Origin: Clavelina lepadiformis
Lineage: Eukaryota > Chordata > Ascidiacea > Aplousobranchia > Clavelinidae
Direction: 5' to 3'
Length of the DNA: 64,000 nt
Assembly: GCF_947623445.1 (NCBI RefSeq)
Contig: NC_135245.1
Coordinates: 14,391,501-14,455,500 of the forward strand
This document shows positions 1 to 52,568 of this stretch, one piece after another. Within the stretch, counting starts at the first letter, position 1; each line of letters begins with the position of its first letter. The notes beneath the pieces are model-generated. The model had not been told where the DNA came from and searched no databases. It was given only the letters and a program-made list of their open reading frames with translations. Both the position numbers and the translations under genes were made by a program.

Positions 1-99
1 GTAATCGCAGGAGTCAGCCGACCCGATGTGCAATGGGCAGGCCTCGTCCTGAGCCCACCATCTTCATGATCATGGTGTAGACTCTCGTCAGGTAAGTAT
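1..99 (-). ncRNA. RNU1: U1 snRNA, copy 1 (3' part beyond window)
   Basis: The minus strand starts at 99 with ATACTTACCTG, the U1 end that pairs with 5' splice sites. Next come a stem-loop I with the U1-70K-type loop GAUCAUGAAG and the stem-loop II loop CAUUGCAC bound by U1A. The window edge removes stem-loop III onward. The visible 99 nt match the array consensus. Confidence 0.93.
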
Positions 100-324
100 G
101 CGTGACGAAACGGATAAACATGCTTGGATCTACAAATATTACCTCAATGTTGCCTTGATAGTTTTGTCGTTGACGTGACCCTGTTCCATTAACGAAATGC
201 CAATAAGGGTAAGATGGAAAATGTTCGAGTTTCCGCAAGCGGAGAGTAGGGAACAACACTTAATCTATCGACTTCGGGTCACGGCAAATGTGGAGTTACT
301 GTTTCAACTTACTTTTTGAACAAT

Positions 325-488
325 CTGGGGAAAGCGCGAACGCAGTCCCCACTAACAGAAATTGTACGACCGAGTTACTCGCATTTGGAGTAATCGCAGG
401 AATCAGCCGACCCGATGTGCAATGGGCAGGCCTCGTCCTGAGCCCACCATCTTCATGATCATTGTGTAGACTCTCGTCAGGTAAGTAT
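325..488 (-). ncRNA. RNU1: U1 snRNA, copy 2 (reference description for the array)
   Basis: This is the RNA core of the U1 snRNP, which recognises 5' splice sites in the nucleus. On the minus strand the RNA is exactly 164 nt, the length of human U1. It has ATACTTACCTG at nt 1-11, the U1-70K loop GAUCAUGAAG at nt 29-38, the U1A loop CAUUGCAC at nt 65-72, a stem-loop III region ending near nt 117, the Sm site AAUUUCUG at nt 126-133 (the human position), and a GC-rich stem-loop IV ending in UUUCCCCAG. RNA polymerase II transcription is expected from the family. Differences from the array consensus are nt 26 C to A and nt 87 C to U (class B). The same pair occurs in copies 8 and 42. Confidence 0.97.
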
Positions 489-694
489 GCGTGACGAAAC
501 GGATAAACATGCTTTGATCTACAAATATTACCTCAATGTTGCCTTGATAGTTTTGTCGTTGACGTGACCCTGTTCGATTAACGAAATGCCAATAAGGGCA
601 AGATGGAAATGTTCGAGTTTCCGCAACCGGAGAGTAGGGAACAACACTTAATCTATCGACTTCGGGTGACGGCAAATGTGGAGTTACCGTTTCA

Positions 695-709
695 TCTTAC
701 TTTTTGAAC
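695..709 (-). promoter_or_regulatory. Candidate snRNA 3' box downstream of U1 copy 3
   Basis: Read on the minus strand this is GTTCAAAAAGTAAGA, three nt after the U1 3' end. It fits the metazoan snRNA 3' box GTTTN(0-3)AAARNNAGA with one mismatch. The core GTT(C/G)AAAAAGT follows every copy, even where the rest of the 3' spacer differs. Integrator-dependent 3' end formation is inferred from the family. Confidence 0.6.
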
Positions 710-712
710 AAT

Positions 713-876
713 CTGGGGAAAGCGCGAACGCAGTCCCCACTAACAGAAATTGTACGACCGAGTTACTCGCATTTGGAGTAATCGCAGGAGTCAGCCGACC
801 CGATGTGCAATGGACAGGCCTCGTCCTGAGCCCACCATCTTCATGATCATGGTGTAGACTCTCGTCAGGTAAGTAT
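713..876 (-). ncRNA. RNU1: U1 snRNA, copy 3
   Basis: Full 164 nt. Class C: one change from consensus, nt 63 C to U beside the U1A loop of stem-loop II. Confidence 0.97.
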
Positions 877-904
877 GCGTGACGAAACGGATAAACATGC
901 TTTG

Positions 905-945
905 ATCCACAAATATTACCTCAATGTTGCCTTGATAGTTTTGTC
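905..945 (-). promoter_or_regulatory. Candidate PSE/promoter region of U1 copy 3
   Basis: Roughly 30-70 bp upstream of the U1 start, where animal snRNA genes carry a proximal sequence element. This stretch is almost invariant in all units while the 3' spacer varies. There is no TATA box at the usual distance, as expected for a polymerase II snRNA gene. The exact element cannot be defined without species data. Confidence 0.4.
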
Positions 946-1101
946 GTTGACGTGACCCTGTTCGATTAACGAAATGCCAATAAGGGTAAGATGGAAAATG
1001 TTCGACTTTTCGCAACCGGAGAGTAGGGAACAACACTTAATCTATCGACTTCGGGTCACGGCAAATGTGGAGTTACCGTTTCATCTTACTTTTTGAACAA
1101 T

Positions 1102-1265
1102 CTGGGGAAAGCGCGAACGCAGTCCCCACTAACAGAAATTATACGACCGAGTTACTCGCATTTGGAGTAATCGCTGGAGTCAGCCCACCCGATGTGCAAT
1201 GGGCAGGCCTCGCCCTGAGCCCACCATCTTCATGATCATGGTGTAGACTCTCGTCAGGTAAGTAT
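1102..1265 (-). ncRNA. RNU1: U1 snRNA, copy 4
   Basis: Full 164 nt. Class D changes at nt 53 A to G and nt 80 C to G (stem-loop II), plus private changes at nt 91 (U to A) and nt 125 (C to U, next to the Sm site). Confidence 0.96.
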
Positions 1266-1490
1266 GCGTGACGAAACGGATAAACATGCTTTGATCTACA
1301 AATATTACCTCAATGTTGCCTTGATAGTTTTGTCGTTGACGTGACCCTGTTCGATTAACGAAATGCCAATAAGGGTAAGATGGAAAATGTTCGAGTTTCA
1401 GCAACCGAAGAGTAGGGAACAACACTTAATCTATCGACTTCGGGTCACGGCAAATGTGGAGTTACTGTTTCATCTTACTTTTTGAACAAT

Positions 1491-1654
1491 CTGGGGAAAG
1501 CGCGAACGCAGTCCCCACTAACAGAAAATGTACGACCGAGTTACTCGCATTTGGAGTAATCGCAGGAGTCAGCCGACCAGATGTGCAATGGGCAGGCCTC
1601 GTCCTGAGCCCACCATCTTCATGATCATGGTGTAGACTCTCGTCAGGTAAGTAT
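1491..1654 (-). ncRNA. RNU1: U1 snRNA, copy 5
   Basis: Full 164 nt. Class E: nt 127 A to U makes the Sm site AUUUUCUG; nt 76 G to U lies in stem-loop II. Confidence 0.95.
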
Positions 1655-1879
1655 GCGTGACGAAACGGATAAACATGCTTGGATCTACAAATATTACCTC
1701 AATGTTGCCTTGATAGTTTTGTCGTTGACGTGACCCTGTTCGATTAACGAAATGCCAATAAGGGTAAGATGGAAAATGTTCGAGTTTCCGCAACCGGAGA
1801 GTAGGGAACAACACTTAATCTATCGACTTCGGGTCACGGTAAATGTGGAGTTACCGTTTCATCTTACTTTTTGAACAAT

Positions 1880-2043
1880 CTGGGGAAAGCGCGAACGCAG
1901 TCCCCACTAACAGAAATTGTACGACCGAGTTACTCGCATTTGGAGTAATCGCAGGAGTCAGCCGACCCGATGTGCAATGGGCAGGCCTCGTCCTTAGCCC
2001 ACCATCTTCATGATCATGGTGTAGACTCTCGTCAGGTAAGTAT
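1880..2043 (-). ncRNA. RNU1: U1 snRNA, copy 6
   Basis: Full 164 nt. One change, nt 49 C to A at the base of stem-loop II. The upstream spacer carries small indels. Confidence 0.96.
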
Positions 2044-2267
2044 GCGTGACGAAACGGATAAACATGCTTTGATCTACAAATATTACCTCAATGTTGCCTT
2101 GATAGTTTTGTCGTTGACGTGACCCTGTTCGATTAACGAAATGCCAATAAGGGTAAGATGGAAATGTTCAAGTTTCCGCAACCGGAGAGTAGGGAACAAC
2201 ACTTAATCTATCGAATTCGGATCACGGTAAATGTCGAGTTATTGTTTCTTTGAACTTTTTGAACAAT

Positions 2268-2431
2268 CTGGGGAAAGCGCGAACGCAGTCCCCACTAACA
2301 GAAATTGTACGACCGAGTTACTCGCATTTGGAGTAATCGCAGGAGTCAGCCGACCCGATGTGCAATGGACAGGCCTCGTCCTGAGCCCACCATCTTCATG
2401 ATCATGGTGTAGACTCTCGTCAGGTAAGTAT
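2268..2431 (-). ncRNA. RNU1: U1 snRNA, copy 7
   Basis: Full 164 nt. nt 63 C to U only. The upstream spacer matches copy 1, so this unit looks like a class A/C recombinant. Confidence 0.97.
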
Positions 2432-2656
2432 GCGTGACGAAACGGATAAACATGCTTGGATCTACAAATATTACCTCAATGTTGCCTTGATAGTTTTGTC
2501 GTTGACGTGACCCTGTTCCATTAACGAAATGCCAATAAGGGTAAGATGGAAAATGTTCGAGTTTCCGCAAGCGGAGAGTAGGGAACAACACTTAATCTAT
2601 CGACTTCGGGTCACGGCAAATGTGGAGTTACTGTTTCAACTTACTTTTTGAACAAT

Positions 2657-2820
2657 CTGGGGAAAGCGCGAACGCAGTCCCCACTAACAGAAATTGTACG
2701 ACCGAGTTACTCGCATTTGGAGTAATCGCAGGAATCAGCCGACCCGATGTGCAATGGGCAGGCCTCGTCCTGAGCCCACCATCTTCATGATCATTGTGTA
2801 GACTCTCGTCAGGTAAGTAT
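2657..2820 (-). ncRNA. RNU1: U1 snRNA, copy 8
   Basis: Full 164 nt. Class B (nt 26 and nt 87), as copy 2. Confidence 0.97.
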
Positions 2821-3044
2821 GCGTGACGAAACGGATAAACATGCTTTGATCTACAAATATTACCTCAATGTTGCCTTGATAGTTTTGTCGTTGACGTGAC
2901 CCTGTTCGATTAACGAAATGCCAATAAGGGCAAGATGGAAATGTTCGAGTTTCCGCAACCGGAGAGTAGGGAACAACACTTAATCTATCGACTTCGGGTG
3001 ACGGCAAATGTGGAGTTACCGTTTCATCTTACTTTTTGAACAAT

Positions 3045-3208
3045 CTGGGGAAAGCGCGAACGCAGTCCCCACTAACAGAAATTGTACGACCGAGTTACTC
3101 GCATTTGGAGTAATCGCAGGAGTCAGCCGACCCGATGTGCAATGGACAGGCCTCGTCCTGAGCCCACCATCTTCATGATCATGGTGTAGACTCTCGTCAG
3201 GTAAGTAT
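3045..3208 (-). ncRNA. RNU1: U1 snRNA, copy 9
   Basis: Full 164 nt. nt 63 C to U. Its upstream spacer has two extra G residues near 3222. Confidence 0.96.
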
Positions 3209-3434
3209 GCGTGACGAAACGGGGATAAACATGCTTTGATCTACAAATATTACCTCAATGTTGCCTTGATAGTTTTGTCGTTGACGTGACCCTGTTCGAT
3301 TAACGAAATGCCAATAAGGGCAAGATGGAAATGTTCGAGTTTCCGCAACCGAAGAGTAGGGAACAACACTTAATCTATCGACTTCGGGTGACGGCAAATG
3401 TGGAGTTACCGTTTCATCTTACTTTTTGAACAAT

Positions 3435-3598
3435 CTGGGGAAAGCGCGAACGCAGTCCCCACTAACAGAAATTGTACGACCGAGTTACTCGCATTTGGAG
3501 TAATCGCAGGAGTCAGCCGACCCGATGTGCAATGGACAGGCCTCGTCCTGAGCCCACCATCTTCATGATCATGGTGTAGACTCTCGTCAGGTAAGTAT
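3435..3598 (-). ncRNA. RNU1: U1 snRNA, copy 10
   Basis: Full 164 nt. Class C (nt 63 C to U). Confidence 0.97.
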
Positions 3599-3823
3599 GC
3601 GTGACGAAACGGATAAACATGCTTTGATCCACAAATATTACCTCAATGTTGCCTTGATAGTTTTGTCGTTGACGTGACCCTGTTCGATTAACGAAATGCC
3701 AATAAGGGTAAGATGGAAAATGTTCGACTTTTCGCAACCGGAGAGTAGGGAACAACACTTAATTTATCGACTTCGGGTCACGGCAAATGTGGAGTTACCG
3801 TTTCATCTTACTTTTTGAACAAT

Positions 3824-3987
3824 CTGGGGAAAGCGCGAACGCAGTCCCCACTAACAGAAATTGTACGACCGAGTTACTCGCATTTGGAGTAATCGCAGGA
3901 GTCAGCCCACCCGATGTGCAATGGGCAGGCCTCGCCCTGAGCCCACCATCTTCATGATCATGGTGTAGACTCTCGTCAGGTAAGTAT
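3824..3987 (-). ncRNA. RNU1: U1 snRNA, copy 11
   Basis: Full 164 nt. Class D (nt 53 and nt 80). Confidence 0.97.
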
Positions 3988-4212
3988 GCGTGACGAAACG
4001 GATAAACATGCTTTGATCTACAAATATTACCTCAATGTTGCCTTGATAGTTTTGTCGTTGACGTGACCCTGTTCGATTAACGAAATGCCAATAAGGGTAA
4101 GATGGAAAATGTTCGAGTTTCAGCAACCGGAGAGTAGGGAACAACACTTAATCTATCGACTTCGGGTCACGGTAAATCTCGAGTTATTGTTTCTTTGAAC
4201 TTTTTGAACAAT

Positions 4213-4376
4213 CTGGGGAAAGCGCGAACGCAGTCCCCACTAACAGAAATTGTACGACCGAGTTACTCGCATTTGGAGTAATCGCAGGAGTCAGCCGACC
4301 CGATGTGCAATGGACAGGCCTCGTCCTGAGCCCACCATCTTCATGATCATGGTGTAGACTCTCGTCAGGTAAGTAT
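4213..4376 (-). ncRNA. RNU1: U1 snRNA, copy 12
   Basis: Full 164 nt. Class C (nt 63). Confidence 0.97.
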
Positions 4377-4601
4377 GCGTGACGAAACGGATAAACATGC
4401 TTTGATCCACAAATATTACCTCAATGTTGCCTTGATAGTTTTGTCGTTGACGTGACCCTGTTCGATTAACGAAATGCCAATAAGGGTAAGATGGAAAATG
4501 TTCGACTTTTCGCAACCGGAGAGTAGGGAACAACACTTAATCTATCGACTTCGGGTCACGGCAAATGTGGAGTTAACGTTTCATCTTACTTTTTGAACAA
4601 T

Positions 4602-4765
4602 CTGGGGAAAGCGCGAACGCAGTCCCCACTAACAGAAATTGTACGACCGAGTTACTCGCATTTGGAGTAATCGCAGGAGTCAGCCCACCCGATGTGCAAT
4701 GGGCAGGCCTCGCCCTGAGCCCACCATCTTCATGATCATGGTGTAGACTCTCGTCAGGTAAGTAT
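4602..4765 (-). ncRNA. RNU1: U1 snRNA, copy 13
   Basis: Full 164 nt. Class D (nt 53 and nt 80). Confidence 0.97.
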
Positions 4766-4990
4766 GCGTGACGAAACGGATAAACATGCTTTGATCTACA
4801 AATATTACCTCAATGTTGCCTTGATAGTTTTGTCGTTGACGTGACCCTGTTCGATTAACGAAATGCCAATAAGGGTAAGATGGAAAATGTTCGAGTTTCA
4901 GCAACCGAAGAGTAGGGAACAACACTTAATCTATCGACTTCGGGTCACGGCAAATGTGGAGTTACTGTTTCATCTTACTTTTTGAACAAT

Positions 4991-5154
4991 CTGGGGAAAG
5001 CGCGAACGCAGTCCCCACTAACAGAAAATGTACGACCGAGTTACTCGCATTTGGAGTAATCGCAGGAGTCAGCCGACCCGATGTGCAATGGGCAGGCCTC
5101 GTCCTGAGCCCACCATCTTCATGATCATGGTGTAGACTCTCGTCAGGTAAGTAT
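4991..5154 (-). ncRNA. RNU1: U1 snRNA, copy 14
   Basis: Full 164 nt. Only the class E Sm-site change (nt 127 A to U); nt 76 is consensus. Confidence 0.96.
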
Positions 5155-5379
5155 GCGTGACGAAACGGATAAACATGCTTTGATCTACAAATATTACCTC
5201 AATGTTGCCTTGATAGTTTTGTCGTTGACGTGACCCTGTTCGATTAACGAAATGCCATTAAGGGTAAGATGGAAAATGTTCGAGTTTCCGCAACCGGAGA
5301 GTAGGGAACAACACTTAATCTATCGACTTCGGGTCACGGCAAATGTGGAGTTACCGTTTCATCTTACTTTTTGAACAAT

Positions 5380-5543
5380 CTGGGGAAAGCGCGAACGCAG
5401 TCCCCACTAACAGAAATTGTACGACCGAGTTACTCGCATTTGGAGTAATCGCAGGAGTCAGCCCACCCGATGTGCAATGGGCAGGCCTCGCCCTGAGCCC
5501 ACCATCTTCATGATCATGGTGTAGACTCTCGTCAGGTAAGTAT
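5380..5543 (-). ncRNA. RNU1: U1 snRNA, copy 15
   Basis: Full 164 nt. Class D (nt 53 and nt 80). Confidence 0.97.
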
Positions 5544-5768
5544 GCGTGACGAAACGGATAAACATGCTTTGATCTACAAATATTACCTCAATGTTGCCTT
5601 GATAGTTTTGTCGTTGACGTGACCCTGTTCGATTAACGAAATGCCAATAAGGGTAAGATGGAAAATGTTCGAGTTTCAGCAACCGGAGAGTAGGGAACAA
5701 CACTTAATCTATCGACTTCGGGTCACGGTAAATCTCGAGTTATTGTTTCTTTGAACTTTTTGAACAAT

Positions 5769-5932
5769 CTGGGGAAAGCGCGAACGCAGTCCCCACTAAC
5801 AGAAATTGTACGACCGAGTTACTCGCATTTGGAGTAATCGCAGGAGTCAGCCGACCCGATGTGCAATGGACAGGCCTCGTCCTGAGCCCACCATCTTCAT
5901 GATCATGGTGTAGACTCTCGTCAGGTAAGTAT
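5769..5932 (-). ncRNA. RNU1: U1 snRNA, copy 16
   Basis: Full 164 nt. Class C (nt 63). Confidence 0.97.
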
Positions 5933-6157
5933 GCGTGACGAAACGGATAAACATGCTTTGATCCACAAATATTACCTCAATGTTGCCTTGATAGTTTTGT
6001 CGTTGACGTGACCCTGTTCGATTAACGAAATGCCAATAAGGGTAAGATGGAAAATGTTCGACTTTTCGCAACCGGAGAGTAGGGAACAACACTTAATCTA
6101 TCGACTTCGGGTCACGGCAAATGTGGAGTTACCGTTTCATCTTACTTTTTGAACAAT

Positions 6158-6321
6158 CTGGGGAAAGCGCGAACGCAGTCCCCACTAACAGAAATTGTAC
6201 GACCGAGTTACTCGCATTTGGAGTAATCGCAGGAGTCAGCCCACCCGATGTGCAATGGGCAGGCCTCGCCCTGAGCCCACCATCTTCATGATCATGGTGT
6301 AGACTCTCGTCAGGTAAGTAT
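6158..6321 (-). ncRNA. RNU1: U1 snRNA, copy 17
   Basis: Full 164 nt. Class D (nt 53 and nt 80). Confidence 0.97.
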
Positions 6322-6546
6322 GCGTGACGAAACGGATAAACATGCTTTCATCTACAAATATTACCTCAATGTTGCCTTGATAGTTTTGTCGTTGACGTGA
6401 CCCTGTTCGATTAACGAAATGCCAATAAGGGTAAGATGGAAAATGTTCGAGTTTCAGCAACCGAAGAGTAGGGAACAACACTTAATCTATCGACTTCGGG
6501 TCACGGCAAATGTGGAGTTACTGTTTCATCTTACTTTTTGAACAAT

Positions 6547-6710
6547 CTGGGGAAAGCGCGAACGCAGTCCCCACTAACAGAAAATGTACGACCGAGTTAC
6601 TCGCATTTGGAGTAATCGCAGGAGTCAGCCGACCAGATGTGCAATGGGCAGGCCTCGTCCTGAGCCCACCATCTTCATGATCATGGTGTAGACTCTCGTC
6701 AGGTAAGTAT
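6547..6710 (-). ncRNA. RNU1: U1 snRNA, copy 18
   Basis: Full 164 nt. Class E (nt 127 in the Sm site and nt 76), as copy 5. Confidence 0.95.
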
Positions 6711-6935
6711 GCGTGACGAAACGGATAAACATGCTTTGATCTACAAATATTACCTCAATGTTGCCTTGATAGTTTTGTCGTTGACGTGACCCTGTTCGAT
6801 TAACGAAATGCCAATAAGGGTAAGATGGAAAATGTTCGAGTTTCCACAACCGGAGAGTAGGGAACAACACTTAATCTATCGACTTCGGGTCACGGTAAAT
6901 GTGGAGTTACCGTTTCATCTTACTTTTTGAACAAT

Positions 6936-7099
6936 CTGGGGAAAGCGCGAACGCAGTCCCCACTAACAGAAATTGTACGACCGAGTTACTCGCATTTGGA
7001 GTAATCGCAGGAGTCAGCCGACCCGATGTGCAATGGGCAGGCCTCGTCCTGAGCCCACCATCTTCATGATCATGGTGTAGACTCTCGTCAGGTAAGTAT
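6936..7099 (-). ncRNA. RNU1: U1 snRNA, copy 19
   Basis: Full 164 nt, identical to the array consensus. Confidence 0.97.
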
Positions 7100-7323
7100 G
7101 CGTGACGAAACGGATAAACATGCTTTGATCTACAAATATTACCTCAATGTTGCCTTGATAGTTTTGTCGTTGACGTGACCCTGTTCGATTAACGAAATGC
7201 CAATAAGGGTAAGATGGAAATGTTCAAGTTTCCGCAACCGGAGAGTAGGGAACAACACTTAATCTATCGAATTCGGATCACGGTAAATGTCGAGTTATTG
7301 TTTCTTTGAACTTTTTGAACAAT

Positions 7324-7487
7324 CTGGGGAAAGCGCGAACGCAGTCCCCACTAACAGAAATTGTACGACCGAGTTACTCGCATTTGGAGTAATCGCAGGA
7401 GTCAGCCGACCCGATGTGCAATGGGCAGGCCTCGTCCTGAGCCCACCATCTTCATGATCATGGTGTCGACTCTCGTCAGGTAAGTAT
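7324..7487 (-). ncRNA. RNU1: U1 snRNA, copy 20
   Basis: Full 164 nt. nt 21 U to G in the stem-loop I stem; shared with copies 30, 31, 39 and 40. Confidence 0.97.
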
Positions 7488-7712
7488 GCGTAACGAAACG
7501 GATAAACATGCTTTGATCTACAAATATTACCTCAATGTTGCCTTGATAGTTTTGTCGTTGACGTGACCCTGTTCGATTAACGAAATGCCAATAAGGGTAA
7601 GATGGAAAATGTTCGAGTTTCCGCAACCGGAGAGTAGGGAACAACACTTAATCTATCAACTTCGGGTCACGGCAAATGTTGAGTTACCGTTTCATCTTAC
7701 TTTTTGAACAAT

Positions 7713-7876
7713 CTGGGGAAAGCGCGAACGCAGTCCCCACTAACAGAAATTGTACGACCGAGTTACTCGCATTTGGAGTAATCGCAGGAGTCAGCCGACC
7801 CGATGTGCAATGGGCAGGCCTCGTCCTGAGCCCACCATCTTCATGATCATGGTGTAGACTCTCGTCAGGTAAGTAT
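7713..7876 (-). ncRNA. RNU1: U1 snRNA, copy 21
   Basis: Full 164 nt, consensus. Confidence 0.97.
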
Positions 7877-8101
7877 GCGTGACGAAACGGATAAACATGC
7901 TTGGATCTACAAATATTACCTCAATGTTGCCTTGATAGTTTTGTCGTTGACGTGACCCTGTTCCATTAACGAAATGCCAATAAGGGTAAGATGGAAAATG
8001 TTCGAGATTCCGCAACCGGAGAGCAGGGAACAACACTTAATCTATCGACTTCGCGTCACGGAAAAAGTCGCGTAACTGTTTCTTTTAACTTTTTCAACAA
8101 T

Positions 8102-8265
8102 CTGGGGAAAGCGCGAACGCAGTCCCCACTAACAGAAATTGTACGACCGAGTTACTCGCATTTGGAGTAATCGCAGGAGTCAGCCGACCCGATGTGCAAT
8201 GGGCAGGCCTCGTCCTGAGCCCACCATCTTCATGATCATGGTGTAGACTCTCGTCAGGTAAGTAT
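8102..8265 (-). ncRNA. RNU1: U1 snRNA, copy 22
   Basis: Full 164 nt, consensus. The downstream spacer is the divergent type near 8040-8100. Confidence 0.97.
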
Positions 8266-8490
8266 GCGTGACGAAACGGATAAACATGCTTTGATCTACA
8301 AATATTACCTCAATGTTGCCTTGATAGTTTTGTCGTTGACGTGACCCTGTTCCATTAACGAAATGCCATTAAGGGTAAGATGGAAAATGTTCGAGTTTCC
8401 GCAACCGGAGAGTAGGGAACAACACTTAATCTATCGACTTCAGGTAACGGAAAATGTGGAGTTACTGTTTCATCTTATTTTTTGAACAAT

Positions 8491-8654
8491 CTGGAGAAAG
8501 CGCGAACGCAGTCCCCACTAACAGAAATTGTACGACCGAGTTACTCGCATTTGGAGTAATCGCAGGAGTCAGCCGACCCGATGTGCAATGGGCAGGCCTC
8601 GTCCTGAGCCCACCATCTTCATGATCATGGTGTAGACTCTCGTCAGGTAAGTAT
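8491..8654 (-). ncRNA. RNU1: U1 snRNA, copy 23
   Basis: Full 164 nt. nt 160 C to U in the terminal stem IV; shared with copies 24, 26, 33, 35 and 37. Confidence 0.96.
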
Positions 8655-8879
8655 GCGTGACGAAACGGATAAACATGCTTGGATCTACAAATATTACCTC
8701 AATGTTGCCTTGATAGTTTTGTCGTTGACGTGACCCTGTTCCATTAACGAAATGCCATTAAGGGTAAGATGGAAAATGTTCGAGTTTCCGCAACCGGAGA
8801 GTAGGGAACAACACTTAATCTATCGACTTCAGGTAACGGAAAATGTGGAGTTACTGTTTCATCTTATTTTTTGAACAAT

Positions 8880-9043
8880 CTGGAGAAAGCGCGAACGCAG
8901 TCCCCACTAACAGAAATTGTACGACCGAGTTACTCGCATTTGGAGTAATCGCAGGAGTCAGCCGACCCGATGTGCAATGGGCAGGCCTCGTCCTGAGCCC
9001 ACCATCTTCATGATCATGGTGTAGACTCTCGTCAGGTAAGTAT
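8880..9043 (-). ncRNA. RNU1: U1 snRNA, copy 24
   Basis: Full 164 nt. nt 160 C to U. Confidence 0.96.
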
Positions 9044-9268
9044 GCGTGACGAAACGGATAAACATGCTTGGATCTACAAATATTACCTCAATGTTGCCTT
9101 GATAGTTTTGTCGTTGACGTGACCCTGTTCCATTAACGAAATGCCAATAAGGGTAAGATGGAAAATGTTCGAGATTCTGCAACCGGAGAGCAGGGAACAA
9201 CACTTAATCTATCGACTTCGCGTCACGGAAAAAGTCGCGTAACTGTTTCTTTTAACTTTTTCAACAAT

Positions 9269-9432
9269 CTGGGGAAAGCGCGAACGCAGTCCCCACTAAC
9301 AGAAATTGTACGACCGAGTTACTCGCATTTGGAGTAATCGCAGGAGTCAGCCGACCCGATGTGCAATGGGCAGGCCTCGTCCTGAGCCCACCATCTTCAT
9401 GATCATGGTGTAGACTCTCGTCAGGTAAGTAT
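9269..9432 (-). ncRNA. RNU1: U1 snRNA, copy 25
   Basis: Full 164 nt, consensus. Confidence 0.97.
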
Positions 9433-9657
9433 GCGTGACGAAACGGATAAACATGCTTTGATCTACAAATATTACCTCAATGTTGCCTTGATAGTTTTGT
9501 CGTTGACGTGACACTGTTCGATTAACGAAATGCCATTAAGGGTAAGATGGAAAATGTTCGAGTTTCCGCAACCGGAGAGTAGGGAACAACACTTAATCTA
9601 TCGACTTCCGGTAACGGAAAATGTGGAGTTACCGTTTCATCTTATTTTTTGAACAAT

Positions 9658-9821
9658 CTGGAGAAAGCGCGAACGCAGTCCCCACTAACAGAAATTGTAC
9701 GACCGAGTTACTCGCATTTGGAGTAATCGCAGGAGTCAGCCGACCCGATGTGCAATGGACAGGCCTCGTCCTGAGCCCACCATCTTCATGATCATGGTGT
9801 AGACTCTCGTCAGGTAAGTAT
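9658..9821 (-). ncRNA. RNU1: U1 snRNA, copy 26
   Basis: Full 164 nt. It combines nt 160 C to U with nt 63 C to U, a recombinant of two classes. Confidence 0.96.
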
Positions 9822-10046
9822 GCGTGACGAAACGGATAAACATGCTTTGATCCACAAATATTACCTCAATGTTGCCTTGATAGTTTTGTCGTTGACGTGA
9901 CCCTGTTCGATTAACGAAATGCCAATAAGGGTAAGATGGAAAATGTTCGACTTTTCGCAACCGGAGAGTAGGGAACAACACTTAATCTATCGACTTCGGG
10001 TCACGGCAAATGTGGAGTTACCGTTTCATCTTACTTTTTGAACAAT

Positions 10047-10210
10047 CTGGGGAAAGCGCGAACGCAGTCCCCACTAACAGAAATTGTACGACCGAGTTAC
10101 TCGCATTTGGAGTAATCGCAGGAGTCAGCCCACCCGATGTGCAATGGGCAGGCCTCGCCCTGAGCCCACCATCTTCATGATCATGGTGTAGACTCTCGTC
10201 AGGTAAGTAT
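10047..10210 (-). ncRNA. RNU1: U1 snRNA, copy 27
   Basis: Full 164 nt. Class D (nt 53 and nt 80). Confidence 0.97.
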
Positions 10211-10435
10211 GCGTGACGAAACGGATAAACATGCTTTGATCTACAAATATTACCTCAATGTTGCCTTGATAGTTTTGTCGTTGACGTGACCCTGTTCGAT
10301 TAACGAAATGCCAATAAGGGTAAGATGGAAAATGTTCGAGTTTCAGCAACCGGAGAGTAGGGAACAACACTTAATCTATCGACTTCGGGTCACGGTAAAT
10401 GTCGAGTTATTGTTTCTTTGAACTTTTTGAACAAT

Positions 10436-10599
10436 CTGGGGAAAGCGCGAACGCAGTCCCCACTAACAGAAATTGTACGACCGAGTTACTCGCATTTGGA
10501 GTAATCGCAGGAGTCAGCCGACCCGATGTGCAATGGACAGGCCTCGTCCTGAGCCCACCATCTTCATGATCATGGTGTAGACTCTCGTCAGGTAAGTAT
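10436..10599 (-). ncRNA. RNU1: U1 snRNA, copy 28
   Basis: Full 164 nt. Class C (nt 63). Confidence 0.97.
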
Positions 10600-10824
10600 G
10601 CGTGACGAAACGGATAAACATGCTTTGATCCACAAATATTACCTCAATGTTGCCTTGATAGTTTTGTCGTTGACGTGACCCTGTTCGATTAACGAAATGC
10701 CAATAAGGGTAAGATGGAAAATGTTCGACTTTTCGCAACCGGAGAGTAGGGAACAACACTTAATCTATCGACTTCGGGTCACGGCAAATGTGGAGTTACC
10801 GTTTCATCTTACTTTTTGAACAAT

Positions 10825-10988
10825 CTGGGGAAAGCGCGAACGCAGTCCCCACTAACAGAAATTGTACGACCGAGTTACTCGCATTTGGAGTAATCGCAGG
10901 AGTCAGCCGACCCGATGTGCAATGGGCAGGCCTCGTCCTGAGCCCACCATCTTCATGATCATGGTGTAGACTATCGTCAGGTAAGTAT
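10825..10988 (-). ncRNA. RNU1: U1 snRNA, copy 29
   Basis: Full 164 nt. Private change at nt 16 (G to U), just 3' of the splice-site-pairing end. One flanking upstream base also differs. Confidence 0.96.
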
Positions 10989-11212
10989 GCTTGACGAAAC
11001 GGATAAACATGCTTTGATCTACAAATATTACCTCAATGTTGCCTTGATAGTTTTGTCGTTGACGTGACCCTGTTCGATTAACGAAATGCCAATAAGGGTA
11101 AGATGGAAATGTTCAAGTTTCCGCAACCGGAGAGTAGGGAACAACACTTAATCTATCGAATTCGGATCACGGTAAATGTCGAGTTATTGTTTCTTTGAAC
11201 TTTTTGAACAAT

Positions 11213-11376
11213 CTGGGGAAAGCGCGAACGCAGTCCCCACTAACAGAAATTGTACGACCGAGTTACTCGCATTTGGAGTAATCGCAGGAGTCAGCCGACC
11301 CGATGTGCAATGGGCAGGCCTCGTCCTGAGCCCACCATCTTCATGATCATGGTGTCGACTCTCGTCAGGTAAGTAT
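11213..11376 (-). ncRNA. RNU1: U1 snRNA, copy 30
   Basis: Full 164 nt. nt 21 U to G. Confidence 0.97.
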
Positions 11377-11601
11377 GCGTGACGAAACGGATAAACATGC
11401 TTTGATCTACAAATATTACCTCAATGTTGCCTTGATAGTTTTGTCGTTGACGTGACCCTGTTCGATTAACGAAATGCCAATAAGGGTAAGATGGAAAATG
11501 TTCGAGTTTCCGCAACCGGAGAGTAGGGAACAACACTTAATCTATCGACTTCGGGTCACGGCAAATGTTGAGTTACCGTTTCATCTTACTTTTTGAACAA
11601 T

Positions 11602-11765
11602 CTGGGGAAAGCGCGAACGCAGTCCCCACTAACAGAAATTGTACGACCGAGTTACTCGCATTTGGAGTAATCGCAGGAGTCAGCCGACCCGATGTGCAAT
11701 GGGCAGGCCTCGTCCTGAGCCCACCATCTTCATGATCATGGTGTCGACTCTCGTCAGGTAAGTAT
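11602..11765 (-). ncRNA. RNU1: U1 snRNA, copy 31
   Basis: Full 164 nt. nt 21 U to G. Confidence 0.97.
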
Positions 11766-11990
11766 GCGTGACGAAACGGATAAACATGCTTTGATCTACA
11801 AATATTACCTCAATGTTGCCTTGATAGTTTTGTCGTTGACGTGACCCTGTTCCATTAACGAAATGCCAATAAGGGTAAGATGGAAAATGTTCGAGATTCC
11901 GCAACCGGAGAGCAGGGAACAACACTTAATCTATCGACTTCGCGTCACGGAAAAAGTCGCGTAACTGTTTCTTTTAACTTTTTCAACAAT

Positions 11991-12154
11991 CTGGGGAAAG
12001 CGCGAACGCAGTCCCCACTAACAGAAATTGTACGACCGAGTTACTCGCATTTGGAGTAATCGCAGGAGTCAGCCGACCCGATGTGCAATGGGCAGGCCTC
12101 GTCCTGAGCCCACCATCTTCATGATCATGGTGTAGACTCTCGTCAGGTAAGTAT
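11991..12154 (-). ncRNA. RNU1: U1 snRNA, copy 32
   Basis: Full 164 nt, consensus. Confidence 0.97.
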
Positions 12155-12379
12155 GCGTGACGAAACGGATAAACATGCTTTGATCTACAAATATTACCTC
12201 AATGTTGCCTTGATAGTTTTGTCGTTGACGTGACCCTGTTCCATTAACGAAATGCCATTAAGGGTAAGATGGAAAATGTTCGAGTTTCCGCAACCGGAGA
12301 GTAGGGAACAACACTTAATCTATCGACTTCAGGTAACGGAAAATGTGGAGTTACTGTTTCATCTTATTTTTTGAACAAT

Positions 12380-12543
12380 CTGGAGAAAGCGCGAACGCAG
12401 TCCCCACTAACAGAAATTGTACGACCGAGTTACTCGCATTTGGAGTAATCGCAGGAGTCAGCCGACCCGATGTGCAATGGGCAGGCCTCGTCCTGAGCCC
12501 ACCATCTTCATGATCATGGTGTAGACTCTCGTCAGGTAAGTAT
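12380..12543 (-). ncRNA. RNU1: U1 snRNA, copy 33
   Basis: Full 164 nt. nt 160 C to U. Confidence 0.96.
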
Positions 12544-12768
12544 GCGTGACGAAACGGATAAACATGCTTGGATCTACAAATATTACCTCAATGTTGCCTT
12601 GATAGTTTTGTCGTTGACGTGACCCTGTTCCATTAACGAAATGCCAATAAGGGTAAGATGGAAAATGTTCGAGATTCCGCAACCGGAGAGCAGGGAACAA
12701 CACTTAATCTATCGACTTCGCGTCACGGAAAAAGTCGCGTAACTGTTTCTTTTAACTTTTTCAACAAT

Positions 12769-12932
12769 CTGGGGAAAGCGCGAACGCAGTCCCCACTAAC
12801 AGAAATTGTACGACCGAGTTACTCGCATTTGGAGTAATCGCAGGAGTCAGCCGACCCGATGTGCAATGGGCAGGCCTCGTCCTGAGCCCACCATCTTCAT
12901 GATCATGGTGTAGACTCTCGTCAGGTAAGTAT
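12769..12932 (-). ncRNA. RNU1: U1 snRNA, copy 34
   Basis: Full 164 nt, consensus. Confidence 0.97.
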
Positions 12933-13157
12933 GCGTGACGAAACGGATAAACATGCTTTGATCTACAAATATTACCTCAATGTTGCCTTGATAGTTTTGT
13001 CGTTGACGTGACCCTGTTCCATTAACGAAATGCCATTAAGGGTAAGATGGAAAATGTTCGAGTTTCCGCAACCGGAGAGTAGGGAACAACACTTAATCTA
13101 TCGACTTCAGGTAACGGAAAATGTGGAGTTACTGTTTCATCTTATTTTTTGAACAAT

Positions 13158-13321
13158 CTGGAGAAAGCGCGAACGCAGTCCCCACTAACAGAAATTGTAC
13201 GACCGAGTTACTCGCATTTGGAGTAATCGCAGGAGTCAGCCGACCCGATGTGCAATGGGCAGGCCTCGTCCTGAGCCCACCATCTTCATGATCATGGTGT
13301 AGACTCTCGTCAGGTAAGTAT
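13158..13321 (-). ncRNA. RNU1: U1 snRNA, copy 35
   Basis: Full 164 nt. nt 160 C to U. Confidence 0.96.
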
Positions 13322-13546
13322 GCGTGACGAAACGGATAAACATGCTTGGATCTACAAATATTACCTCAATGTTGCCTTGATAGTTTTGTCGTTGACGTGA
13401 CCCTGTTCCATTAACGAAATGCCAATAAGGGTAAGATGGAAAATGTTCGAGATTCTGCAACCGGAGAGCAGGGAACAACACTTAATCTATCGACTTCGCG
13501 TCACGGAAAAAGTCGCGTAACTGTTTCTTTTAACTTTTTCAACAAT

Positions 13547-13710
13547 CTGGGGAAAGCGCGAACGCAGTCCCCACTAACAGAAATTGTACGACCGAGTTAC
13601 TCGCATTTGGAGTAATCGCAGGAGTCAGCCGACCCGATGTGCAATGGGCAGGCCTCGTCCTGAGCCCACCATCTTCATGATCATGGTGTAGACTCTCGTC
13701 AGGTAAGTAT
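13547..13710 (-). ncRNA. RNU1: U1 snRNA, copy 36
   Basis: Full 164 nt, consensus. Confidence 0.97.
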
Positions 13711-13935
13711 GCGTGACGAAACGGATAAACATGCTTTGATCTACAAATATTACCTCAATGTTGCCTTGATAGTTTTGTCGTTGACGTGACCCTGTTCGAT
13801 TAACGAAATGCCATTAAGGGTAAGATGGAAAATGTTCGAGTTTCCGCAACCGGAGAGTAGGGAACAACACTTAATCTATCGACTTCAGGTAACGGAAAAT
13901 GTGGAGTTACCGTTTCATCTTATTTTTTGAACAAT

Positions 13936-14099
13936 CTGGAGAAAGCGCGAACGCAGTCCCCACTAACAGAAATTGTACGACCGAGTTACTCGCATTTGGA
14001 GTAATCGCAGGAGTCAGCCGACCCGATGTGCAATGGGCAGGCCTCGTCCTGAGCCCACCATCTTCATGATCATGGTGTAGACTCTCGTCAGGTAAGTAT
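13936..14099 (-). ncRNA. RNU1: U1 snRNA, copy 37
   Basis: Full 164 nt. nt 160 C to U. Confidence 0.96.
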
Positions 14100-14324
14100 G
14101 CGTGACGAAACGGATAAACATGCTTGGATCTACAAATATTACCTCAATGTTGCCTTGATAGTTTTGTCGTTGACGTGACCCTGTTCGATTAACGAAATGC
14201 CAATAAGGGTAAGATGGAAAATGTTCGAGTTTCCGCAACCGGAGAGTAGGGAACAACACTTAATCTATCGACTTCGGGTCACGGCAAATGTGGAGTTACC
14301 GTTTCATCTTACTTTTTGAACAAT

Positions 14325-14488
14325 CTGGGGAAAGCGCGAACGCAGTCCCCACTAACAGAAATTGTACGACCGAGTTACTCACATTTGGAGTAATCGCAGG
14401 AGTCAGCCGACCTCATGTGCAATGGACAGGCCTCATCCTGAGCCCACCATCTTCATGATCATGGTGTAGACTCTCGTCAGGTAAGTAT
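14325..14488 (-). ncRNA. RNU1: U1 snRNA, copy 38 (most divergent)
   Basis: Full 164 nt but five changes: nt 54, 63, 75 and 76 in stem-loop II and nt 108 in stem-loop III. The 5' pairing end and Sm site are intact. This is the likeliest copy to be a decaying gene or a functional variant. Confidence 0.92.
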
Positions 14489-14713
14489 GCGTGACGAAAC
14501 GGATAAACATGCTTTGATCCACAAATATTACCTCAATGTTGCCTTGATAGTTTTGTCGTTGACGTGACCCTGTTCGATTAACGAAATGCCAATAAGGGTA
14601 AGATGGTAAATGTTCGACTTTTCGCAACCGGAGAGTAGGGAACAACACTTAATCTATCGACTTCGGGTCACGGCAAATGTGGAGTTACCGTTTCATCTTA
14701 CTTTTTGAACAAT

Positions 14714-14877
14714 CTGGGGAAAGCGCGAACGCAGTCCCCACTAACAGAAATTGTACGACCGAGTTACTCGCATTTGGAGTAATCGCAGGAGTCAGCCGAC
14801 CCGATGTGCAATGGGCAGGCCTCGTCCTGAGCCCACCATCTTCATGATCATGGTGTCGACTCTCGTCAGGTAAGTAT
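14714..14877 (-). ncRNA. RNU1: U1 snRNA, copy 39
   Basis: Full 164 nt. nt 21 U to G. Its whole unit is nearly identical to that of copy 40. Confidence 0.97.
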
Positions 14878-15101
14878 GCGTGACGAAACGGATAAACATG
14901 CTTTGATCTACAAATATTACCTCAATGTTGCCTTGATAGTTTTGTCGTTGACGTGACCCTGTTCGATTAACGAAATGCCAATAAGGGTAAGATGGAAATG
15001 TTCAAGTTTCCGCAACCGGAGAGTAGGGAACAACACTTAATCTATCGAATTCGGATCACGGTAAATGTCGAGTTATTGTTTCTTTGAACTTTTTGAACAA
15101 T

Positions 15102-15265
15102 CTGGGGAAAGCGCGAACGCAGTCCCCACTAACAGAAATTGTACGACCGAGTTACTCGCATTTGGAGTAATCGCAGGAGTCAGCCGACCCGATGTGCAAT
15201 GGGCAGGCCTCGTCCTGAGCCCACCATCTTCATGATCATGGTGTCGACTCTCGTCAGGTAAGTAT
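15102..15265 (-). ncRNA. RNU1: U1 snRNA, copy 40
   Basis: Full 164 nt. nt 21 U to G. Apparent recent duplicate of copy 39. Confidence 0.97.
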
Positions 15266-15489
15266 GCGTGACGAAACGGATAAACATGCTTTGATCTACA
15301 AATATTACCTCAATGTTGCCTTGATAGTTTTGTCGTTGACGTGACCCTGTTCGATTAACGAAATGCCAATAAGGGTAAGATGGAAATGTTCAAGTTTCCG
15401 CAACCGGAGAGTAGGGAACAACACTTAATCTATCGAATTCGGATCACGGTAAATGTCGAGTTATTGTTTCTTTGAACTTTTTGAACAAT

Positions 15490-15653
15490 CTGGGGAAAGC
15501 GCGAACGCAGTCCCCACTAACAGAAATTGTACGACCGAGTTACTCGCATTTGGAGTAATCGCAGGAGTCAGCCGACCCGATGTGCAATGGGCAGGCCTCG
15601 TCCTGAGCCCACCATCTTCATGATCATGGTGTAGACTCTCGTCAGGTAAGTAT
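15490..15653 (-). ncRNA. RNU1: U1 snRNA, copy 41
   Basis: Full 164 nt, consensus. Opens the repeat of the copy 1-5 order. Confidence 0.97.
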
Positions 15654-15878
15654 GCGTGACGAAACGGATAAACATGCTTGGATCTACAAATATTACCTCA
15701 ATGTTGCCTTGATAGTTTTGTCGTTGACGTGACCCTGTTCCATTAACGAAATGCCAATAAGGGTAAGATGGAAAATGTTCGAGTTTCCGCAAGCGGAGAG
15801 TAGGGAACAACACTTAATCTATCGACTTCGGGTCACGGCAAATGTGGAGTTACTGTTTCATCTTACTTTTTGAACAAT

Positions 15879-16042
15879 CTGGGGAAAGCGCGAACGCAGT
15901 CCCCACTAACAGAAATTGTACGACCGAGTTACTCGCATTTGGAGTAATCGCAGGAATCAGCCGACCCGATGTGCAATGGGCAGGCCTCGTCCTGAGCCCA
16001 CCATCTTCATGATCATTGTGTAGACTCTCGTCAGGTAAGTAT
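15879..16042 (-). ncRNA. RNU1: U1 snRNA, copy 42
   Basis: Full 164 nt. Class B (nt 26 and nt 87). Confidence 0.97.
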
Positions 16043-16266
16043 GCGTGACGAAACGGATAAACATGCTTTGATCTACAAATATTACCTCAATGTTGCCTTG
16101 ATAGTTTTGTCGTTGACGTGACCCTGTTCGATTAACGAAATGCCAATAAGGGCAAGATGGAAATGTTCGAGTTTCCGCAACCGGAGAGTAGGGAACAACA
16201 CTTAATCTATCGACTTCGGGTGACGGCAAATGTGGAGTTACAGTTTCATCTTACTTTTTGAACAAT

Positions 16267-16430
16267 CTGGGGAAAGCGCGAACGCAGTCCCCACTAACAG
16301 AAATTGTACGACCGAGTTACTCGCATTTGGAGTAATCGCAGGAGTCAGCCGACCCGATGTGCAATGGACAGGCCTCGTCCTGAGCCCACCATCTTCATGA
16401 TCATGGTGTAGACTCTCGTCAGGTAAGTAT
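16267..16430 (-). ncRNA. RNU1: U1 snRNA, copy 43
   Basis: Full 164 nt. Class C (nt 63). Confidence 0.97.
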
Positions 16431-16655
16431 GCGTGACGAAACGGATAAACATGCTTTGATCCACAAATATTACCTCAATGTTGCCTTGATAGTTTTGTCG
16501 TTGACGTGACCCTGTTCGATTAACGAAATGCCAATAAGGGTAAGATGGAAAATGTTCGACTTTTCGCAACCGGAGAGTAGGGAACAACACTTAATCTATC
16601 GACTTCGGGTCACGGCAAATGTGGAGTTACCGTTTCATCTTACTTTTTGAACAAT

Positions 16656-16819
16656 CTGGGGAAAGCGCGAACGCAGTCCCCACTAACAGAAATTGTACGA
16701 CCGAGTTACTCGCATTTGGAGTAATCGCAAGAGTCAGCCCACCCGATGTGCAATGGGCAGGCCTCGCCCTGAGCCCACCATCTTCATGATCATGGTGTAG
16801 ACTCTCGTCAGGTAAGTAT
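16656..16819 (-). ncRNA. RNU1: U1 snRNA, copy 44
   Basis: Full 164 nt. Class D (nt 53 and nt 80) plus nt 90 C to U. Confidence 0.96.
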
Positions 16820-17044
16820 GCGTGACGAAACGGATAAACATGCTTTGATCTACAAATATTACCTCAATGTTGCCTTGATAGTTTTGTCGTTGACGTGACC
16901 CTGTTCGATTAACGAAATGCCAATAAGGGTAAGATGGAAAATGTTCGAGTTTCAGCAACCGGAGAGTAGGGAACAACACTTAATCTATCGACTTCGGGTC
17001 ACGGCAAATGTGGAGTTACTGTTTCATCTTACTTTTTGAACAAT

Positions 17045-17208
17045 CTGGGGAAAGCGCGAACGCAGTCCCCACTAACAGAAAATGTACGACCGAGTTACTC
17101 GCATTTGGAGTAATCGCAGGAGTCAGCCGACCAGATGTGCAATGGGCAGGCCTCGTCCTGAGCCCACCATCTTTATGATCATGGTGTAGACTCTCGTCAG
17201 GTAAGTAT
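17045..17208 (-). ncRNA. RNU1: U1 snRNA, copy 45
   Basis: Full 164 nt. Class E (nt 127 and nt 76) plus nt 35 G to A inside the U1-70K loop, which could weaken U1-70K binding. Its spacer also has private changes, as expected near an array edge. Confidence 0.93.
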
Positions 17209-17433
17209 GCGTGACGAAACGGATAAACATGCTTTGATCTACAAATATTACCTCAATGTTGCCTTGATAGTTTTGTCGTTGACGTGACGCTGTTCGATTA
17301 ACGAAATGCCGATAAGGGTAAGATGGAAAATGTTCGAGTTTCCGCAACCGGAGAGTAGGGAACAACACTTAATCTATCGACTTCGGGTCACGGTAAATGT
17401 GGAGTTAATGTTTCATCTTACTTTTTGAACAAT

Positions 17434-17597
17434 CTGGGGAAAGCGCGAACGCAGTCCTCACTAACAGAAATTGTACGACCGAGTTACTCGCATTTGGAGT
17501 AATCGCAGGAGTCAGCCGACCCGATGTGCAATGGGCAGGCCTCGTCCTGAGCCCACCATCTTCATGATCATGGTGTAGACTCTCGTCAGGTAAGTAT
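17434..17597 (-). ncRNA. RNU1: U1 snRNA, copy 46 (last of the array)
   Basis: Full 164 nt. nt 140 G to A at the base of stem-loop IV. Only about 125 bp of upstream spacer remain before foreign sequence, but the candidate PSE region is still present. Confidence 0.95.
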
Positions 17598-17722
17598 GCG
17601 TGACGAAACGGATAAACATGCTTTGATCTACAAATATTACCTCAATGTTGCCTTGATAGTTTTGTCGTTGACGTGACCCTGTTCGATTAACGAAATGCCA
17701 ATAAGGGTAAGATGGAAAATGT

Positions 17723-18376
17723 CCACCGGGGACAACTGAACGTGACGTAAATTGACGGCGAACAAACTGACTGTGATGTAAATTGACGGCGAACAAACTA
17801 ACCGGGAACAGACTTACCGGAATGAAAATTGACCGGGAGGTAAATTGACCGTGCAAGTGCTGATTTATTGTGTTTAAGTTGATGGTAGTATATGATGTGT
17901 AAAGTAAATATTTGTTTGTAACTATTTCCTTTGTTTTTAACAAAATTTTTTTTTTTTTTTTAATACACATTGAAACATTTATTGAAATAAACAGAAATAT
18001 TTCCGGAAATACGAGAAATACGAGTAACAACATTAAAAGAAGTTCACTGCAAAACACATATGACACTACATAATAAGGGCACTAAAATTTACACAAACTG
18101 TTATTTGACAAATCAGTCAACCTTGACTGCAATACACATACTTAATTGGCTGAGATTAAAGCTGTTGCGCGACTAGATAGTGAAATAGAATTTTGACCTT
18201 TTGACGGCCAATTTGTCGACGGTTAATTTGATCGCCGGCCAATTTATCGACGGTTAATTTCATCGCCGGCCAATTTACGTCACGGTTAATTTGATCGCCG
18301 GCCAATTTGTTGCCGGTCAGTTGTCCACTACCAGTTGTCGCCGGTGAGTTTGTTCACGGCCATATGTCGTGATCCC
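17723..18376. mobile_element. Inverted-repeat element with iterated GACCGG-type sub-repeats, abutting the array
   Basis: Both ends carry several copies of a short motif around AATTGACGGCGAACAAACT (left) and, in the opposite orientation, GCCGGCCAATTTGTCGACGG (right). They flank a centre with a long T run near 17948. The right end finishes at GTCGTGATCCC, but the left arm lacks the matching outer 30 bp or so, so the left tip appears lost at the array junction. No transposase frame is visible. The multiple sub-terminal repeats suggest a non-autonomous DNA element; family not identified. Confidence 0.6.

Positions 18377-40672: not shown

Positions 40673-52568
<11,896 letters not shown>

Follow-up and report, generated by a model that had tools for sequence, protein, structure and literature searches.

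A tandem array of U1 snRNA genes and a second, dispersed class of U1 genes in the genome of the ascidian Clavelina lepadiformis

Tandem arrays of U1 snRNA genes are already known in animals, and in sea urchin and Xenopus the repeated unit measures 1-2 kb. In human, the RNU1/RNU2 loci consist of an array or cluster accompanied by divergent variants, and a tandem array of U2 is known in primates. The accessible portions of the literature report 11 and 35 genomic U1 copies for X. laevis (1L and 1S, respectively) and 20 for X. tropicalis (PMC10361878), as well as 297 intact U1 genes in zebrafish (PMC3706591), so that a high U1 copy number is not new in itself. In sources of the same kind, U1 isoforms are described as shifting during development in frog, mouse and fly, with sea-urchin studies suggesting likewise (PMC4291461), and the larvacean tunicate Fritillaria borealis as possessing two U1 versions whose 5' ends are the same (PMC13326754). 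Clavelina is absent from the main text of the latter article, where no tandem U1 layout was seen in the available portion; likewise, nothing on U1 arrays was found in the available portion of PMC2770079. The array of Clavelina lepadiformis described here is a new and compact member of the group.

The array was recognized in a stretch of 64,000 nucleotides of chromosome 6, hereafter the window, in which the original prediction had placed at least 46 U1 genes in tandem, each unit being made of 164 bp of U1 and about 225 bp of spacer. The minus-strand search with the Rfam U1 covariance model (RF00003) proposed along with it gave 46 matches within positions 1-17722, all on the minus strand: 45 are complete, and the other is truncated at the edge of the window. 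Each complete match covers model positions 1-166, measures 164 nt and scores 133.3-145.7 bits, and all 46 (72.7-145.7 bits) lie above the gathering score of 69.5. The same interval is a tandem repeat with a period of 389, 45.6 copies and 96% matches. The array copies are U1 snRNA genes, and the features of the locus are the following:

1..17722, minus strand: right-hand part of the tandem array, unit of a 164-bp gene plus ~225-bp spacer (from repeat and covariance matches)
1..99, minus strand: edge-cut U1 snRNA gene (RF00003, 72.7 bits, cut 3'; the complete gene is C6:14391436-14391599)
325..17597, minus strand: 45 complete 164-nt U1 snRNA genes, one per 388-390-bp unit, with 5' ends at the high coordinates (488, 876, 1265 ... 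17597)
3824..3987, minus strand: example U1 gene copy, 145.7 bits, one of the five top-scoring in the window
3977..3987, minus strand: 5' splice-site-pairing end of the example copy, which also carries GATCATGAAG, ATTGCAC and the Sm site AATTTCTG (from sequence)
3794..3823, minus strand: 3'-box-like sequence GTTCAAAAAGTAAGA, directly downstream of the example gene (from sequence)
4020..4066, minus strand: promoter-proximal block -79 to -33 of the example copy, candidate PSE region (from its invariance in 148 of 148 units)
17724..18362, no strand assigned: repeat element with long imperfect inverted repeats, adjoining the right end of the array

The last of these elements has further copies across the genome and lies outside the U1 system. 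A tRNA scan of the window found none.

The predicted unit structure was borne out, since the 44 spacings between the complete window copies are 389 bp (35 cases), 388 bp (8) or 390 bp (1). The predicted number of copies held for the window and was exceeded by the locus as a whole: the complete array contains 151 gene copies in one orientation at C6:14350948-14409097, over about 58 kb of chromosome 6, and therefore begins some 40.5 kb to the left of the window, which includes its right-hand part only. Throughout the array the units measure 389 bp (99), 388 bp (48), 390 bp (1), 395 bp (1) or 230 bp (2), so that 148 of the 151 copies stand in units of 388-390 bp. The imperfect copies are two 134-nt fragments without a 5' end and two damaged genes at the extreme left, one of the latter matching positions 1-159 only and the other bearing a short insertion. 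The locus has the homogenised head-to-tail units of a tandem snRNA array.

The 11-nt 5' end responsible for splice-site pairing (ATACTTACCTG) is present, together with the 164-nt length, in all 45 complete window copies, as foreseen for the visible genes, and the 5' end is found in 146 of the 148 full units. The U1-70K loop of stem-loop I, whose consensus is of the GAUCANGAAG type, reads GATCATGAAG in 44/45 complete window copies and is canonical in 147/148 array units; the U1A loop ATTGCAC (AUUGCAC) is retained in 45/45 and 146/148, respectively. As Sm site, 41 complete window copies have AATTTCTG and the other 4 have ATTTTCTG, the corresponding numbers among the 148 full units being 132 and 15. 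All four key motifs are intact in 142 of these units. The 30 downstream bases, which we take to resemble the snRNA 3' box, occur in ten variants among the 45 copies.

Variation from unit to unit was used to look for constraint in 148 of the 151 units, the two 230-bp units and the 395-bp unit being set aside. Variable sites amount to 81/138 in the distal spacer, 10/87 in the proximal spacer and 36/164 in the gene (gene versus distal spacer, Fisher p = 8e-11, sites taken as independent). Moreover, the block from -79 to -33 is identical in 148/148 full units (0/47 sites variable), a run of 47 invariant positions that did not arise once when the variable spacer sites were placed at random 20000 times. 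An invariant upstream block and a gene of low variation, set against a drifting spacer, form the pattern expected of working genes with their own promoters, and this pattern of constraint supports the earlier proposal that most copies may be functional. Some frequent variants do fall within the gene (148 copies), at position 26 (24 copies), where a pair of stem I is broken, position 63 (30) and position 87 (28), in addition to an A to T change of the Sm site (15/148 copies). Units lying 1 to 120 units apart, compared at 24 distances, have a mean identity of 96.0-97.6% at every distance, and part of the low variation could derive from recent homogenisation.

Ten dispersed U1 genes, 81-86% identical to the array gene, were found in the same genome and constitute an unexpected second class. 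The two classes differ at 25-32 of 164 bases and in their upstream sequences, and 21 positions separate them in the 24 genes compared. The 11-nt 5' end is common to the array and nine of the ten dispersed genes, and the Sm site AATTTCTG is present in all ten; by contrast, the U1-70K-binding loop is altered in nine, with the stem-loop I sequences GATCCGGCAG, GATCCAGCAG and GATCAACCAG. The only dispersed gene with a canonical loop, C1c (163 nt), has an altered 5' end, and among the U1 genes found an intact 5' end and a canonical 70K loop occur together only in genes of the array and of a mini-array. The dispersed genes of C2 and C4 are 98.8-99.4% identical to each other, whereas their 150-bp upstream regions are only ~52-58% alike, and the nine genes with an altered loop look functional from their sequences. 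The original prediction had set against itself the case of a silent array with functional U1 genes elsewhere; the existence of such genes proved true (ten, nine of which look functional), but it does not make the array inert, given the invariant proximal block and genes far less variable than the distal spacer.

The changes between the classes respect the U1 fold. This was evaluated on an alignment of 24 chosen genes, 23 of them distinct (15 of the 45 complete window copies, four mini-array genes and five of the ten dispersed genes, with the 163-nt C1c left out), in which 34 cells show both sides of a pair changed (8.1 in shuffles); the covariation score reaches 0.133, compared with at most 0.059 with partners slid. 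Two of the five measures give the structure no support: the pairs with a double change (7) fall within the range of the shuffles (74/500 reach the value) and further pair types fall below them (500/500).

A functional snRNA gene is expected to carry a PSE-type element in its promoter, about 55 bp before the start. A motif search on ten chosen promoters, compared with 60 shuffles, gave a 14-position motif scoring 83.3 (best shuffle 81.1) and an 18-position motif scoring 94.9 (best shuffle 93.5), in both cases by a narrow margin and with some sites placed differently in the latter. When promoters were scored with the start positions of the 14-position run, all eight trained promoters were recovered in leave-one-out, with low scores for the U4 array and the C4 U1 gene; the promoters of the U1 and U2 arrays were not recovered. 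The resulting PSE-like motif is a candidate PSE common to dispersed U1, U4, U5 and U6 genes. At the expected place the U1 array promoter does not match it above chance (949/5000 shuffles reach its score), and therefore the PSE of the array remains a candidate only; its highest-scoring site at any position lies at -63 (raw score 1.1 bits). U2 genes and linked U4-U5 genes are also in tandem arrays, and U5 is split in a similar way: its arrayed genes are 120 nt long and its six dispersed genes 111 nt. The best 40 matches scored in the U2 and U4 DNA searches are all array copies.

A second U1-70K gene suited to the altered loop was considered and rejected. The other strong match in the genome (46% identity), on C3 at 22653182-22653490, reads as the 35K protein of the minor spliceosome, a likeness that we assume, and the remaining matches outside the U1-70K gene (26-37% identity) look like ordinary RRM proteins. 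In the U1-70K of this genome, 10 of the 11 residues named as RNA contacts in the portion of PMC4383343 available are unchanged; Lys138 is replaced by Val, and the exon containing Phe106 matches weakly (E = 0.13).

Taken as a whole, these observations are very probably explained by a working array that provides most of the canonical U1 when demand is high, alongside a dispersed second class. Each 389-bp unit would comprise an entire gene, its 164-nt RNA preceded by a control block of its own, together with a freely drifting spacer, and unequal exchange or gene conversion would keep the units alike. The RNA with the normal U1-70K loop would most likely come in bulk from the array, for instance during oocyte growth and in early embryos, and the ten dispersed genes, nine of them with an altered loop, form a class under other promoters. 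Transcription of the array, its role in dosage, its timing and a weaker binding of U1-70K by the dispersed class are what we infer on these grounds. A plain satellite is rejected by the covariance model and the constraint. That the array is instead a silent satellite derived from U1 and amplified by unequal exchange, all U1 being made by the ten dispersed genes, is quite improbable: the near identity of the C2 and C4 genes despite divergent upstream regions, and the motif they share with U4, U5 and U6 where the fit of the array promoter stays within chance, speak for it, but such a satellite should vary evenly, and 47 invariant positions beside the variable distal sites, the motifs intact in nearly all units and the restriction of the intact 5' end with canonical loop to the array and mini-array argue against it. 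Even less credible is a copy number expanded or wrongly repeated in assembly. A block of 20 consecutive units does recur without any difference 26 units away, which is possibly an assembly duplication, but 76 distinct sequences are present among the 148 units, the 70-kb stretch contains no N, and the available portion of PMC10884593 gives 117-fold HiFi coverage and QV 67.4.

The working array may also be read in a sharper form, in which it provides the U1 of oocyte and embryo and the dispersed genes that of adult or somatic tissues, a partition that has been reported in sea urchin and Xenopus. We place this at slightly below an even chance; it overlaps with the broader explanation, and the two confidences are not additive. 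The divergence of the classes in gene and upstream sequence, the parallel split of U5 and the changes of U1 isoforms during development in other animals (PMC4291461, accessible portion) are in its favor; in that same portion, however, it is the major isoform that is produced throughout, the rarer ones being made mainly in early embryos, so that the arrayed set is not thereby embryonic. More tentatively, and rather doubtfully, Clavelina might possess two functional kinds of U1, an arrayed one that binds U1-70K normally and a dispersed, conserved one whose rewritten stem-loop I would yield a U1 snRNP that binds U1-70K weakly, lacks it or recruits a different partner. The outcome would be two particles, made at different stages, with the same 5' splice-site pairing and unlike protein partners.

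The Clavelina locus offers an assembled snRNA array of an invertebrate chordate, in which variation from unit to unit reveals the promoter and RNA positions under selection, and its two-class layout of an array plus divergent dispersed genes is worth testing. If the classes do differ in timing or in U1-70K binding, this ascidian would be a natural test of the purpose of the conserved U1-70K loop. Like the U1 arrays of Xenopus and sea urchin, the Clavelina array is made of head-to-tail U1 genes, but it differs in its 151 copies and its 389-bp unit, compared with units of 1-2 kb in urchin and frog. Zebrafish is similar in its high U1 copy number. With Fritillaria borealis, as far as the accessible text describes it (PMC13326754), Clavelina shares U1 versions with a common 5' end, here that of the array and nine of the ten dispersed genes. 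Finally, the human RNU1/RNU2 loci and variant U1 genes resemble Clavelina in pairing an array or cluster with divergent variant copies, whereas in Clavelina it is the arrayed genes that keep the canonical 70K loop and the conserved dispersed genes that have an altered one.

The dense row of U1 snRNA genes that the original prediction placed at positions 1-17722 of the window was confirmed by an Rfam scan of the window, in which 46 minus-strand matches to RF00003 (U1) were found, 45 whole and one clipped by the window edge, and no other family scored above its gathering score. Over the same positions, Tandem Repeats Finder reported a single array with a period of 389, 45.6 copies and 96% matches, and the 44 intervals between the 45 complete copies measure 389 bp (35), 388 bp (eight) or 390 bp (one). 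As regards its reach, the prediction holds for the window (C6:14391501-14455500; C6 is taken to be chromosome 6), but this part is only the right-hand end of an array of 151 copies. A BLAST comparison of one U1 gene with C6:14341501-14411500 gave 152 matches, of which 151 point the same way and span 14350948-14409097; the remaining match, at 14342504, stands alone, inverted and truncated. Across the whole array the units are 389 (99), 388 (48), 390 (1), 395 (1) or 230 bp (2) long. Units 34-53 are repeated exactly as units 60-79 (C6:14363771 to about 14381331; 20 consecutive units, offset 26, about 10 kb), so that either the block was duplicated recently or the assembly contains it twice. The surroundings hold four further features:

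C6:14342504-14342865, inverted: degenerate U1-unit fragment, about 8 kb left of the array
C6:14078016-14078197: degenerate U1-unit fragment, about 0.27 Mb from the array
Window 17724-18362: repeat adjoining the right end of the array, in which long, imperfect inverted repeats occur together with 31-bp subrepeats, resembling a non-autonomous DNA transposon; related copies lie in two other stretches of the genome (L030, about 5132-6055; L054, 510-736)
Window 44510-44968: open frame that matches pfkB carbohydrate kinase (PF00294, E = 3.7e-15) and is probably a single exon of a gene for a ribokinase-like protein

Variation among the 148 full-length units is unevenly distributed, with 81 of 138 sites variable in the distal spacer (-225 to -88), 10 of 87 in the proximal spacer (-87 to -1) and 36 of 164 in the U1 gene. 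Both the gene (Fisher p = 8e-11) and the proximal spacer (p = 3e-13) differ from the distal spacer, values that take the sites as independent while the units are related; kinship of units alone should not, however, sort variation by function. From -79 to -33 every unit is the same, and when the 91 variable spacer sites were placed at random 20,000 times, an unbroken stretch of 47 constant positions never arose. All four key motifs are kept in 142 of these units (5' end in 146, U1-70K loop in 147, U1A loop in 146, Sm-like site in 147). Frequent within-gene variants would count against the array genes being alive: position 26 (24/148), which disrupts a stem I pair, position 63 (30/148), position 87 (28/148) and, in the Sm site, position 127 (15/148).

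The genome searched (209,060,895 bases, 95 contigs) also contains a second class of dispersed U1 genes, at least three on C1, two on C2, four on C4 and one on C9, with 81-86% identity to the array gene and unlike flanks. Array-class genes also form a short row elsewhere:

C4:16653823-16655651: U1 mini-array, four full units plus partial ends, 91-92% identity to the array over the unit

When 15 array, four mini-array and five dispersed genes were aligned, the number of differences between array and dispersed genes was 25-32 over 164 positions, and fixed differences at 21 positions set the dispersed genes apart from those of the array and mini-array. Under the U1 fold, 95.0% of cells were paired against 92.2% in shuffles, 34 cells against 8.1 were changed on both sides of a pair, and the covariation score was 0.133 against 0.075 (at most 0.059 with slid partners), so the between-class differences mostly fit the U1 fold. 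In the same alignment, two measures gave no support for the fold: pairs with a double change (seven against 5.3; 74 of 500 shuffles reach seven) and further pair types (15 against 18.3). Much of the signal is one split between the two classes counted in many rows.

Nine of the dispersed genes are also under selection: C2 and C4 genes share 98.8-99.4% identity with upstream 150 bp only about 52-58% alike, and C1a and C1b, two of the C1 genes, share 94.5-95.7% with the C2, C4 and C9 genes (upstream about 48-56%). The third, C1c, with about 86% identity to the other dispersed genes, may be a pseudogene; it retains the loop GATCATGAAG, but its 5' end is altered and its length is 163 nt.

The U1-70K loop is kept as GATCATGAAG in the array and reads GATCACGAAG in three of four mini-array genes, GATCCAGCAG in the dispersed C2 genes, GATCCGGCAG in those of C4 and C9, and GATCAACCAG in C1a and C1b. 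In the human structure, as described in PMC4383343, A32, C33, G34 and A35 are stacked on, embraced or ordered by U1-70K; at least one of them is changed in each of the nine dispersed genes, all of which have C where A35 would stand. The U1-70K RRM of this genome was assembled by aligning it, one exon after another, to a typed human stretch, and carries Val for Lys138, in a numbering obtained by counting. Another U1-70K-like match looks like U11/U12-35K. Of the 11 contact residues that PMC4383343 names, ten are retained, with Phe106 resting on a weak match. Since the loop contact bases are changed and the protein contacts largely kept, dispersed U1 may bind U1-70K more weakly.

U1, U2, U4 and U5 are all arrayed in this genome, and U5 shows the same split between array and dispersed genes as U1:

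C4:17035987-17125779, reaching at least 17125779: U2 tandem array, 776-bp unit (read in stretches L031, L032 and L049 only)
C2:7291603-7377659: linked U4-U5 array in which the two genes alternate within common units of 657 and 642 bp (stretches covered: L047 and L048)
C4:20488421, C6:13383640, C2:13694926, C2:16370686, C6:13824188, C9:9981700: six dispersed U5 genes of 111 nt, against 120 nt in the array

All 46 scored U2 matches, best matches only, fall inside the U2 array, where 23 of the 24 full-length copies in the stretches read are identical to the query over 193 bases; three short U2 fragments lie close to its left end. U6 gave five matches over the cut-off, all inside 18 kb of C4. A motif like CCACAAAT or GCAAAT lies about 56 bp upstream of dispersed U1, arrayed U4 and U5 and dispersed U5, and 63 bp upstream of U6. 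Its discovery narrowly exceeded 60 shuffles, a modest support, and leave-one-out recovered eight of eight trained promoters, two with low scores. At the expected place in the U1 and U2 arrays, this motif was no better than chance (reached by 949 and 4365 of 5000 shuffles, respectively).

With its many complete U1 genes in tandem, the array would most likely be a dosage device, and exchange between units would keep its copies alike. The natural guess would be that it serves oocytes or early embryos, since U1 isoform changes in development are reported or cited for fly, mouse and frog, and as a suggestion for sea urchin, in PMC4291461. The array is not described in what was covered of the open-licence papers on ascidian tandem snRNA genes (PMC13326754 and PMC3706591 among them); with the search confined to such papers, this is weak evidence for an unpublished array. 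The two-class layout, together with the changed U1-70K loop in the dispersed genes, adds to its interest. Tandem U1 genes are already a known kind, with Xenopus loci of 11, 20 and 35 U1 copies (PMC10361878), and the Clavelina array is a further member. For zebrafish, 297 intact U1 genes are reported (PMC3706591).
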